Assembly (NCBI RefSeq): GCF_008728195.1
Contig: NZ_CP031598.1
Coordinates: forward strand, 2,852,001 to 2,916,000
Direction of reading: 5' to 3'
DNA length: 64,000 nucleotides
DNA from: Roseovarius indicus
GTDB lineage: Bacteria > Pseudomonadota > Alphaproteobacteria > Rhodobacterales > Rhodobacteraceae
This document shows positions 51,382 through 53,960 of the stretch, piece after piece. The position numbers and the translations under genes are program-made. Position 1 is the stretch's first letter; every line of letters begins with the position of its first letter. Below the pieces are notes generated by a model. That model saw nothing but the letters and a program-made list of their open reading frames with translations, made no database searches and was not told where the DNA came from.

Positions 51382-52362
51382 ATGGCCGACCGCACGATCC
51401 TCGTCACCCGCGCCTGGCCGAAAGAGGCCGAGGAACGGCTCGTCGCCGAACGCCTCGGCACCGTCACCCTGCGCCACCCCGACACGCCCATGAGCCGCGA
51501 CGAATGGATGGCCGCCGCGCAAAGCTACGACGTCATCATGCCCACCGTGTCGGACAAGATCCCGGCCGAATTCTATCCGGCCGCAAAGGGCAAGCTGCGC
51601 GTCATGGCCAATTACGGCGTGGGCTTCAACCACATCGACATCGACGCCGCCCGCGACAACGGGATTGCTGTCACCAACACGCCCGACGTGCTGACCGACT
51701 GCACCGCCGATCTGGCCATGGGCCTGCTGCTCTGCGCCGCCCGACGCATCGGCGAGGGTGAACGCGAGACGCGCGCCGGGCAATGGGCCGGCTGGCGCCC
51801 CACCCACATGATCGGCAAGAAGGTCTCCGGCGCCACCATCGGCATCATCGGCTTCGGCCGCATCGGCCAGGCCATGGCCCGCCGCGCCCATGGCGGCTTC
51901 GGCATGCGCGTGGTGTTCCAGGATGCCTGGGACGTGCCCGACGAGATCAAGGCGGCCAACGGACAGGCCGAACAGCTGGGCTCCATCACCGAGGTCGCGG
52001 CCGAGGCCGATTTCCTCTCCCTCCACTGCCCGGGCGGCGCCGACACCTACAAGCTGATCAATGCCGAGGTGTTCAACGCGCTGAAACCCGGCGCCATCCT
52101 CGTCAACTCCGCCCGCGGCGACGTGGTCGACGAAGACGCCCTCTTCGACGCGCTCGACAGCGGGCGGGTGGCGGCGGCCGGGCTCGATGTCTACCACAAT
52201 GAACCCGCCCTCGACCCGCGCTTCCTGACCTACGGGAACATCGTCCTCGCCCCGCATCTGGGCAGCGCCACCGACGGCACCCGCGCCGCCATGGGCCACC
52301 GCGCCATCGACAATCTCAAGGCGTTCCTTGCGGGCGAAACCCCGGGCGATCTCGTCACGTAA
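51382..52362 (+). CDS. hprA: D-2-hydroxyacid dehydrogenase, probable hydroxypyruvate/glyoxylate reductase
   Basis: 326 residues. NAD-binding GIIGFGRIGQA near 154-164, Arg in VNSARGDVVDE (about 243), Glu in DVYHNEPALD (about 272) and His in APHLGSATDG (about 291) form the catalytic set. The position after sgaA supports hydroxypyruvate reduction to glycerate, the next serine-cycle step. Glyoxylate reductase activity is likely too. Distinct from the shorter HPR-A of Methylobacterium only in details I cannot judge. Confidence 0.92.
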   Translation: MADRTILVTRAWPKEAEERLVAERLGTVTLRHPDTPMSRDEWMAAAQSYDVIMPTVSDKIPAEFYPAAKGKLRVMANYGVGFNHIDIDAARDNGIAVTNTPDVLTDCTADLAMGLLLCAARRIGEGERETRAGQWAGWRPTHMIGKKVSGATIGIIGFGRIGQAMARRAHGGFGMRVVFQDAWDVPDEIKAANGQAEQLGSITEVAAEADFLSLHCPGGADTYKLINAEVFNALKPGAILVNSARGDVVDEDALFDALDSGRVAAAGLDVYHNEPALDPRFLTYGNIVLAPHLGSATDGTRAAMGHRAIDNLKAFLAGETPGDLVT

Positions 52363-52397
52363 ACCGGCTGTTAACCAAGGTGGGAAAGGATCGGGCC

Positions 52398-52625
52398 ATG
52401 AGCGATCATGGCCCGATCACGCCCGAGCAATGGCTCGGCAAGCTGTTCTCCTCCCGCGCCGCCCGCGAGGGGCGCGTCATCCGGCGGCAACTCCGCGACA
52501 TCGACCGTTATATCGGCCGCGACCGGTTCGAGGCCGAGCTCGCCCGGCGCGGCTATCACGCGGTCGAAAACGCCGGACAGATGGTCATCTTCTGCAACCA
52601 GGAACCCGTCCGCGTGGTTCTCTAG
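52398..52625 (+). CDS. Small conserved protein, unknown function
   Basis: 75 residues from ATG 52398: MSDHGPITPEQWLGKLFSSRAAREGRVIRRQLRDIDRYIGRDRFEAELARRGYHAVENAGQMVIFCNQEPVRVVL (shown in full only by its features: PEQWLGKLF, RRQLRDID, RRGYHAV, CNQEP). I recall related small proteins in Rhodobacterales mislabelled as phosphoribosylanthranilate isomerase; it has no such fold. Basic N-half could bind nucleic acid. The last base of its TAG is the first base of the palindrome array. Confidence 0.7.
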   Translation: MSDHGPITPEQWLGKLFSSRAAREGRVIRRQLRDIDRYIGRDRFEAELARRGYHAVENAGQMVIFCNQEPVRVVL

Positions 52626-52773
52626 GTACTTTCCGCGCGGAAAGTACCCTCGGGAAATGCGCATTTCCCGAGCCCGGAATTTGCGCAAATTCCGGGACCC
52701 TGCCGCCACCGTCACGCTCGCGACTCGCCCGGAAAATTCGAATTTTCCGGCCCGGAATTTTCCAAAATTCCGG
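52625..52773. repeat. Array of five 22-24-bp palindromes
   Basis: Three perfect 24-bp palindromes abut each other without gap: 52625-52648 (arm GGTACTTTCCGC), 52649-52672 (arm CTCGGGAAATGC) and 52673-52696 (arm CCCGGAATTTGC), each centred on GC/GC. After 32 bp come 52729-52750 (arm CCGGAAAATTC, perfect 22 bp) and 52752-52773 (arm CCGGAATTTT with CC centre). Arms differ between units, so symmetry rather than sequence is kept. Located in the 393-bp gap between the 75-aa gene and mcl, which holds no gene otherwise. Confidence 0.95.
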
Positions 52774-52875
52774 CACCAAAGGGAACATAAGTTTCCGATC
52801 ATAAACACTTGTTTTCCCGCCCCTTTCTCTGCGCCGCAGCGAGTGCATCCCACCGCATCCCGCAACGCCTGCACC

Positions 52876-52898
52876 GGGTAGGCCCACCCTACCCGTTC
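52876..52898. promoter_or_regulatory. Serine-cycle inverted repeat, mcl site
   Basis: GGGTAGG-CCCAC-CCTACCC followed by GTTC: perfect 7-bp arms, 5-bp spacer. Twin of 50038-50060. It is 121 bases before the mcl start. Confidence 0.68.
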
Positions 52899-53018
52899 AG
52901 GCCCCATCCCCCTCCCCGCGCCGCCATTCTTACCCGCAGGGAAGTGTCGCGGCCGCCGCTTTCGGGCGACAACCGAAGACAACGGACACGCCCCGTCCGA
53001 ATGAGGAAGGACACCCAC

Positions 53019-53960
53019 ATGAGCTACACCCTCCACCCGCTCAAGAAACAGCGCCTGCAACGATCCGAACTGGCCGTGCCCGGCTCGAACCCGTCGATGA
53101 TCGACAAGGCCGCCGACTCGGGGGTCGATTACATCTTCCTCGACCTCGAAGATGCCGTCGCGCCCCCCGACAAGGTGCAGGCCCGCGCCAACATCATCCA
53201 GGCCTTGAACGACATCGACTGGAAGGCCAAGGGCAAGACCATGTCGATCCGCATCAACGGGCTCGACACCCATTACATGTACCGCGACGTGGTCGAAATC
53301 GTCGAACAGGCGGGCCAGCACCTCGACACCATCCTCGTGCCCAAGGTGGGCGTGCCGGCCGATCTCTACACCGTGGAAACCATGGTCAGCCAGATCGAAG
53401 AGGCGATGGGCTTCACCCACCAGATCGGCCTCGAAGCGCTCATCGAAACCTCCCTCGGCATGGCCAATGTCGAGGCCATCGCCGCCGCCCCCGGCCGGCT
53501 GGAAGCCCTGCATTTCGGCGTGGCCGACTACGCCGCCTCCACCCGCGCCCGCACCGTCGTCATCGGGGGCCTCAACCCCGATTACCCCGGCGACCAGTGG
53601 CACTTCGCCCTCTCCCGCATGACCGTCGCCTGCCGCGCCTATGGCCTCCGCGCCATCGACGGCCCCTTCGGCGACTTCTCGGATCCCGACGCCTATGTCG
53701 CCTCGGCCAAACGCGCCGCGGCGCTCGGGATCGAGGGCAAATGGGCCATCCACCCCAGCCAAATCGCGCTTGCCAACGACGTCTTCTCGCCGCCCGAGCC
53801 GGAAGTCACCAAGGCCCGCCGCATCATCGAGGAACTCAAGAAGGCCGCCGCCGAGGGCAAGGGCGCCGCCTCGCTCGACGGCAAGATGATCGACGCCGCC
53901 AGCGAGCGCATGGCCAACAACGTCATCACCGTCGCCGACGCCATCGCGGCCAAAGGGTAA
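53019..53960 (+). CDS. mcl1: L-malyl-CoA / beta-methylmalyl-CoA lyase
   Basis: 313 residues from MSYTLHPLKKQRLQRSELAVPGSNPSM at 53019 with GAGGAAGG upstream. CitE-like TIM barrel: YIFLDLEDAVAPPDK (metal and CoA site), GLEALIETSLGMANVEAIAAA, LHFGVADYAASTRA and WAIHPSQIALANDVF. Cleaves malyl-CoA to acetyl-CoA and glyoxylate in the serine cycle. 15 bases precede mtkA. In Rhodobacter the same enzyme serves the ethylmalonyl-CoA pathway, so a dual role is possible. Confidence 0.95.
   Translation: MSYTLHPLKKQRLQRSELAVPGSNPSMIDKAADSGVDYIFLDLEDAVAPPDKVQARANIIQALNDIDWKAKGKTMSIRINGLDTHYMYRDVVEIVEQAGQHLDTILVPKVGVPADLYTVETMVSQIEEAMGFTHQIGLEALIETSLGMANVEAIAAAPGRLEALHFGVADYAASTRARTVVIGGLNPDYPGDQWHFALSRMTVACRAYGLRAIDGPFGDFSDPDAYVASAKRAAALGIEGKWAIHPSQIALANDVFSPPEPEVTKARRIIEELKKAAAEGKGAASLDGKMIDAASERMANNVITVADAIAAKG

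Follow-up and report, generated by a model that had tools for sequence, protein, structure and literature searches.

A row of abutting palindromes behind a 75-aa protein gene in Roseovarius indicus and a possible REP-like module with a non-transposase partner

The window analysed here, a 64,000-nucleotide stretch of Roseovarius indicus (contig NZ_CP031598.1, positions 2,852,001 to 2,916,000), carries a row of palindromes at 52625-52773, directly behind a small gene that we call p1 (52398..52625, + strand), which was delimited by its open reading frame and its homologs and encodes 75 aa up to a TAG stop codon. Palindromes 1 to 3 lie end to end at 52625-52696 and are perfect 24-mers without an assigned strand: palindrome 1 (52625..52648, core type H1, TTTCCGCGCGGAAA), palindrome 2 (52649..52672, core type H2, GGAAATGCGCATTTCC), and palindrome 3 (52673..52696, core type H3, GGAATTTGCGCAAATTCC). 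After a gap of 32 nt follows a second array, composed of palindrome 4 (52729..52750, a perfect H2-like 22-mer) and palindrome 5 (52752..52773, an H3-like 22-mer with one central mismatched pair), likewise without a strand; both are missing in the closest genome, G446. A palindrome search of the window thus bore out the layout of three abutting perfect 24-mers, a perfect 22-mer, and a near-perfect 22-mer described in an earlier note on this DNA, and also its remark that palindrome 1 opens on the last base of the stop codon, namely, the G of TAG. Four palindromes with arms of at least 11 bp fall inside the 126 bp at 52625-52750, against a chance level, determined from 100 order-2 Markov versions of the 64-kb window, of 0.02 per window for 11-bp arms and 0 for longer arms. 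Folded as RNA, the triad gave three hairpins of 10 bp each, separate from one another, whichever strand was taken (-44.2 and -44.1 kcal/mol; z -6.9 and -5.7). By our own reading of the open reading frames, the locus is preceded by sgaA-like and hprA-like genes and followed by mcl (ATG at 53019) and mtkA/B-like genes. Rfam at gathering score matched two tRNAs only in the whole window and no family at the array, and a known RNA family was therefore dropped as an explanation.

The array was found to be linked to the small gene almost constantly. The small protein has 212 homologs, the organism names among the 120 listed being Rhodobacteraceae, and the gene was detected in 97 of 196 genomes of the order. 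With the small gene as query, 131 loci were fetched (no more than the 30 top hits from each genome search), of which 110 were left after identical and too short ones had been dropped. An array was present at 104 of these 110 distinct loci, i.e., at 74 of 80 loci of the p1 type and at all 30 loci resembling p2, a paralog at G000:C1:3253962 that is 51% identical to p1. The order-level loci, which form part of the 110, had an array in 27 of 30 cases; of the loci among all 110 that lack an array, L081 and L085 have what by eye are imperfect hairpins, and L111, whose record bears the label of a Burkholderiaceae metagenome-assembled genome, looks like a fragment. In 41 named loci (397 kb), 37 of 42 arrays started at most 100 nt downstream of the small gene and none within 300 nt upstream when fixed coordinates were used; of the remaining five, L108 and L110 adjoin the small gene by eye and three lie elsewhere. 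As controls, we chose hemF and rplT, two genes that carry an array in R. indicus itself, and took the best 30 loci of each from 60 genomes. Only 5 of 30 hemF orthologs (a sixth, L215, by eye) and 1 of 30 rplT orthologs had an array by the finder, indicating that hemF and rplT gain and lose their arrays, while that of the small gene stays. The downstream neighbours of the homologous loci varied, including look-alikes of mtkA, cytochrome P450, fructose-bisphosphate aldolase, and thioesterase by our own reading. Since the homologs have arrays beside such different genes, the serine-cycle linkage stressed in the earlier note looks incidental, and the link to the small gene itself had been overlooked.

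The position of the array is independent of the stop codon and was counted from the end of the conserved domain. It started 1-16 nt after the conserved domain in 92 of the 104 loci, at 18-54 nt in 11 p1-type loci, and at -14 in one p2-type locus. A start at the stop codon was tried as a rule and given up for the domain-end count, as the first in-frame stop placed the array within 40 nt in 49 of 66 loci; in a set of 84 loci, of which 81 had an array, the start lay within -25 to +15 of the stop in 51. In 68 of 74 p1-type loci the array comes after a stop codon, whereas in 22 of 30 p2-type loci (including L175, L296, and L300) no stop occurs before it and the frame reads through, so that the proteins printed end in a recurrent C-terminal tail similar to PISSKEIGPKSFQDFG. 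Such read-through would not be expected of an array that had to fold in a 3′ untranslated region.

Furthermore, two array classes accompany the two paralogs. Class I comprises triads with the cores TTTC..GAAA, GAAAAT..ATTTTC, and GGAATTT..AAATTCC, in that order or reversed, and class II comprises doublets around CTT-nnn-AAG. R. indicus has p1 with a class I triad and p2 with a class II doublet; more generally, p1-type genes had class I-like triads or doublets and p2-type genes class II. We then compared abundances in 84 genomes of the genus, ignoring kinship, with p1 called at a match of at least 91 bits that was better to p1 (18 genomes) and p2 at no less than 69% identity (31 genomes; G432 and G410 have p2 fragments only). 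Hits are strand hits, so that an array is often counted twice, and at most 73 or 60 candidates were scored per genome, so that high counts saturate. At least 20 class I model hits occurred in 13 of 18 genomes with p1 versus 1 of 66 without, and more than two class II hits occurred in 30 of 31 genomes with p2 versus 17 of 53 without; genomes with neither paralog had a median of 0 for both classes. The palindrome type thus matches the type of the associated gene by abundance, with the limit that genomes having only p1 still carried class II (median 10.5) and those having only p2 some class I (median 6). A plain table of any p1 match against any class II hit gave 45, 12, 9, and 18, and a 30-genome hemF tree placed high class I counts in two parts of the tree. 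As a separate observation, G394 (L205, L211), which sits beside p2 carriers in this tree, had no detectable small gene, as if the gene had been lost, although class II gave 64 strand hits there, corresponding to about 32 arrays.

The arms of the palindromes covary. Among 20 of the 23 collected class II doublets, three with another core being left out, 96% of cells were paired and nine pairs had changed on both sides (53 such cells versus 19 in shuffles). The class I set was made up of the 17 triads with an exact 23/23 pitch out of 33 collected, a set to which the window's own triad (24/24) does not belong; here, 97.7% of cells were paired and 11 pairs had changed on both sides (54 cells versus 16), while the 18 further pair types showed no excess over shuffles. 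Family-wide, the first hairpin behind p1-type genes (53 distinct) was 97% Watson-Crick versus 49% in shuffles, with two-sided changes in 169 cells versus 40, and the second (58 distinct) 98% versus 48%, with 193 versus 44. These pairing percentages lean upward because the array finder requires complementarity, yet 104 of 110 loci passed it. Several arm positions ran through all four Watson-Crick pair types. Paired arm changes between relatives, which the earlier note had proposed to look for, were thus found well above shuffles; behind p2, for instance, a T-A pair has turned into C-G between R. indicus and G446, both sides having changed. At the mcl locus, the 72-nt triad is identical between R. 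indicus and G446 even though the flanks are about 79-88% identical. In the more distant Roseovarius sp. MMSF_3350 and R. atlanticus, this locus also has three palindromes, but with quite different arms.

Mismatches were few and showed no sense-strand G-U excess: 4 G-T and 9 A-C of 1320 pairs in p1-type arrays, and 2 G-T and 0 A-C of 504 pairs in p2-type arrays. The rarity of G-T pairs fits a role for both strands, or for the DNA itself, better than a role confined to a single RNA, and, together with the arrays inside reading frames, it disfavours a purely one-strand RNA hairpin. The innermost position was relaxed: a Watson-Crick pair stood there in 60 of the 98 hairpins with an even centre and in 25 of the 83 with an odd one. 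Hairpin loops are relaxed in this way, although free centres can also occur in dimer sites.

Arrays of this kind are dispersed through the R. indicus genome. A sample of 851 kb (the window plus 40 stretches, with 8 kb of overlap with the window; about 14% of the genome) was searched mechanically for two or more hairpins spaced by at most 6 nt and contained 25 such arrays, compared with one in shuffled sequence, and a loose pattern of palindrome 3, CCCGGAATTT-N2-6-AAATTCCGG, gave 36 strand matches at 23 genomic places and none for the reversed control. An AT-core family accounts for 23 of the 25 arrays, of which 22 pass the filter and one (L037 16952) fails only by a GC-rich third hairpin. The three palindromes of the window match core types that recur elsewhere in the same order or its reverse; a strict H1-H2-H3 order from the stop codon is not general, as L049 is reversed behind its gene. 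Among 122 neighbours, 101 had a centre-to-centre pitch of either 23 or 24 nt; in the 23 class II doublets collected, for which 22-27 had been allowed, the pitch was exactly 24. As with repetitive extragenic palindromic (REP) sequences, the dispersed palindromes lie at many places and mostly between genes, by rough gene calls. The similar abutting runs elsewhere in the genome that the earlier note had suggested searching for therefore exist, and a local accident, which it had tied to a loss of symmetry in relatives and the absence of other arrays, was dropped because the arrays recur in the genome and orthologs retain them. Its proposal that symmetry and length are conserved, not a repeat sequence, holds in part: symmetry is kept as the arm letters vary, but the palindromes are also a repeat family scattered over the genome, in which the cores, their order, and a pitch of 23-24 nt are conserved.

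Outside the genus, the samples were small. Four other genera of the family (320 kb), two of whose genomes carry the small gene, had two arrays, both unlike those described here, and two more, again unlike, turned up in 377 kb sampled as 20 stretches across the other families of the class, one of which, 1 kb long, had no readable letters. A fixed-letter pattern of an H1 palindrome followed by CCGGAA occurred in 2 of 385 genomes of the class, R. indicus and one of the same family. When the 12 arrays found in the first 400 kb of R. indicus were compared with G446, five had an array at the corresponding site, three had none (one looks like an internal deletion), and four could not be placed. At C1:334422, G446 (C7) seems to keep both outer ends of the triad without its middle, as though a deletion had run from one palindrome arm to another.

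For REP-type repeats, the best-known association is with a single partner, the REP-associated tyrosine transposase (RAYT). The small protein differs from it at 75 aa and is unrelated by family search, the RAYT being a Y1 transposase (HUH, IS200/IS605-like); Y1_Tnp (PF01797) gave no match in the R. indicus genome, whereas the control was positive in 5 of 14 known genomes. A RAYT was therefore dropped. The likeness lies in grouped, dispersed palindromes with complementary stem changes and an accompanying gene family: PMC2817692 and PMC3733652 describe REPs and bacterial interspersed mosaic elements as short palindromes, often grouped, between genes, with complementary stem changes and a gene family that seemingly coevolves with them. 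Unlike the RAYT genes, which have inverted REPs on both sides, the small gene has its array on the 3′ side only, and its palindromes abut at a 23-24-nt pitch. While G-T pairs are scarce in the present arrays, GT pairing is described as frequent in the paper on GTAG (among PMC2817692 and PMC3733652). No constant GTAG or CGTC tag was seen by eye beside the palindromes of the listed arrays, and GTAG occurs inside some H2 stems. Without a transposase and two-sided flanking, the present module is not a member of REP/RAYT, despite the like layout and class matching. The arrays, which are real and found across the family, are best described as REP-like and tied to a new, non-RAYT small gene.

Other known elements share single features. 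Rho-independent terminators are also stable hairpins at gene ends, but the arrays lack a T-tract, consist of two or three abutting hairpins, and are symmetric on both strands; a canonical terminator was dropped because no T-tract follows the array. Rickettsia palindromic elements are palindromic sequences translated in frame, but here the palindromes form doublets or triads at the 3′ ends of the genes of a single family. E. coli REP hairpins within 15 nt of stop codons lower translation, according to PMC12306157. Like these, the arrays stand few nucleotides behind a stop codon; unlike these, most p2-type arrays are in frame, the multi-hairpin arrays are regular, and the sequence is another one.

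In searches of the open-licence literature, no title or abstract opening among the matches listed concerned the 75-aa protein or the arrays. Several of its homologs bear the database name N-(5′-phosphoribosyl)anthranilate isomerase, which looks like a mis-annotation for a protein of 75 aa; the protein had no Pfam or NCBIfam family match, and a function based on the name was dropped. Six of seven relatives had no Pfam match either, and one matched Calici_coat_C in a chance-looking manner. A weak profile likeness to norovirus VP1 P domains (residues ~6-62; best E 7e-4; homolog P0063 above the Calici_coat_C cut-off) was taken as chance, and the fold-search rows shown held no norovirus VP1 entry. 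A phage family library gave one match, with E 0.2, for p2 and none for p1. The predicted structure (predicted local distance difference test score of 76) has the element order H-H-E-H-H-E-E, which, on this model, may be compatible with a winged helix; fold matches were weak only, and an assignment of the fold by structure was dropped. We infer that the small protein may bind DNA or RNA.

Upstream of p1 stands a CtrA-like box (52360..52374, + strand), TAAA-N7-TTAA, which is one letter off TTAA-N7-TTAA, starts 38 nt before the ATG, and overlaps the end of the upstream gene. PMC4046655 quotes the CtrA consensus as TTAA-N7-TTAA(C). Of the 110 homologs, 40 had the full TTAA-N7-TTAA upstream, placed between -38 and -41 or between -53 and -55, versus 3 of 1755 control windows; the other 70 homologs are without a full box. 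The small gene's annotated name was not found in the main texts of the CtrA papers PMC4046655 and PMC6473078.

We give a probability of roughly 0.5 to the reading that recognition of the arrays by the small protein is the core mechanism, making up a REP/RAYT-like gene and palindrome module with a non-transposase partner. The module would consist of, often, a CtrA-type box, the gene of the 75-aa protein, and two or three abutting palindromes behind the coding domain, the array being its cis half. The small protein would recognise palindromes of its own class, either by binding the duplex as a dimer or by binding hairpins formed where a strand is exposed; this recognition would regulate its own gene and would let arrays of the same class spread or persist in the manner of REP/RAYT, through an unrelated, non-transposase partner. 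If only the symmetric, foldable unit were recognised, arms would stay equal and changes would survive in pairs. The complete proposal, a new two-part system of Rhodobacterales in which a CtrA-linked 75-aa protein has cognate arrays, each paralog recognises symmetry and pitch instead of a fixed sequence, the array behind the gene serves to control that gene, and arrays of the matching class are seeded through the genome without a known transposase, is more tentative, and we hold it as possible rather than probable. The gene and its arrays form an arrangement comparable to REP/RAYT with an unrelated tiny partner, in which shape is conserved over sequence, and lend themselves well to the question of why symmetry is selected, be it for a duplex site, a hairpin, or repair. 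They also hint at a function for a probably mis-annotated family, for which covarying sets are ready for tests.

The main competing explanation, to which we give somewhat better than a one-in-four chance, is that the arrays are 3′-end elements working on two strands, i.e., stable hairpins in a row that block 3′ exonucleases or aid termination for the genes on the two sides, which are often convergent; equal function on both strands would keep the arms Watson-Crick on both. The stop codons before most p1-type arrays, the strong folding on both strands, and the relaxed, loop-like innermost position agree with this, and of the 23 family arrays in the R. indicus sample eight are no more than 15 nt from the end of a called gene and six are between called convergent genes, as judged by a rough gene caller that took the wrong strand at the window locus and at L047 14422, where a stop also directly precedes the array. 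Nevertheless, the array lacks a T-tract, and the sole terminator-like site in 52300-53100 is at 52983-52999 on the minus strand. Canonical-looking terminators do exist in the genus: rplT orthologs keep one by eye, and the R. indicus array lies past it. Translation through the array in 22 of 30 p2-type frames also speaks against 3′-end elements, which give no account of why one gene family nearly always has an array and hemF and rplT rarely do.

A mutational process, in which strand switching at replication would use one arm as the template for the other and yield paired changes without selection, appears improbable. It would explain the few G-T intermediates and the near-perfect pairing of changing arms, but accounts neither for the tie to a single gene family nor for the ordered cores, the pitch, or the relaxed centre; moreover, the 72 bases unchanged at the mcl locus while the flanks diverged point to constraint. 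Binding sites of an unrelated host DNA-binding protein, with the small gene merely adjacent, are less probable still, because, although dyad symmetry and regular pitch suit dimer sites and the genome has no Y1 transposase match by which a RAYT could explain the arrays, arm positions run through all four pair types, which is unusual for one recognition sequence, and array classes follow the paralog type of the small gene.

Three further elements were seen. An inverted repeat, GATCGGGCCATG-N6-CATGGCCCGATC (52389..52418, + strand; 12-bp arms, loop of 6), surrounds the start codon of p1 and, by eye, is partly kept in same-locus orthologs as GGGCC-ATG..ATGGCCC in varied form. At 52789-52813, 5′ of mcl, the sequence AAGTTTCCGATC-TAAAC-C-TGT is kept in G446 and may belong to the mcl promoter. 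Finally, a separate family of single palindromes, CGTTGAAACCC..GGGTTTCAACG, occurs at L035 7148, L040 8687, and L045 5545 (80-100, 180-200, and 280-300 kb of C1 of R. indicus, respectively).
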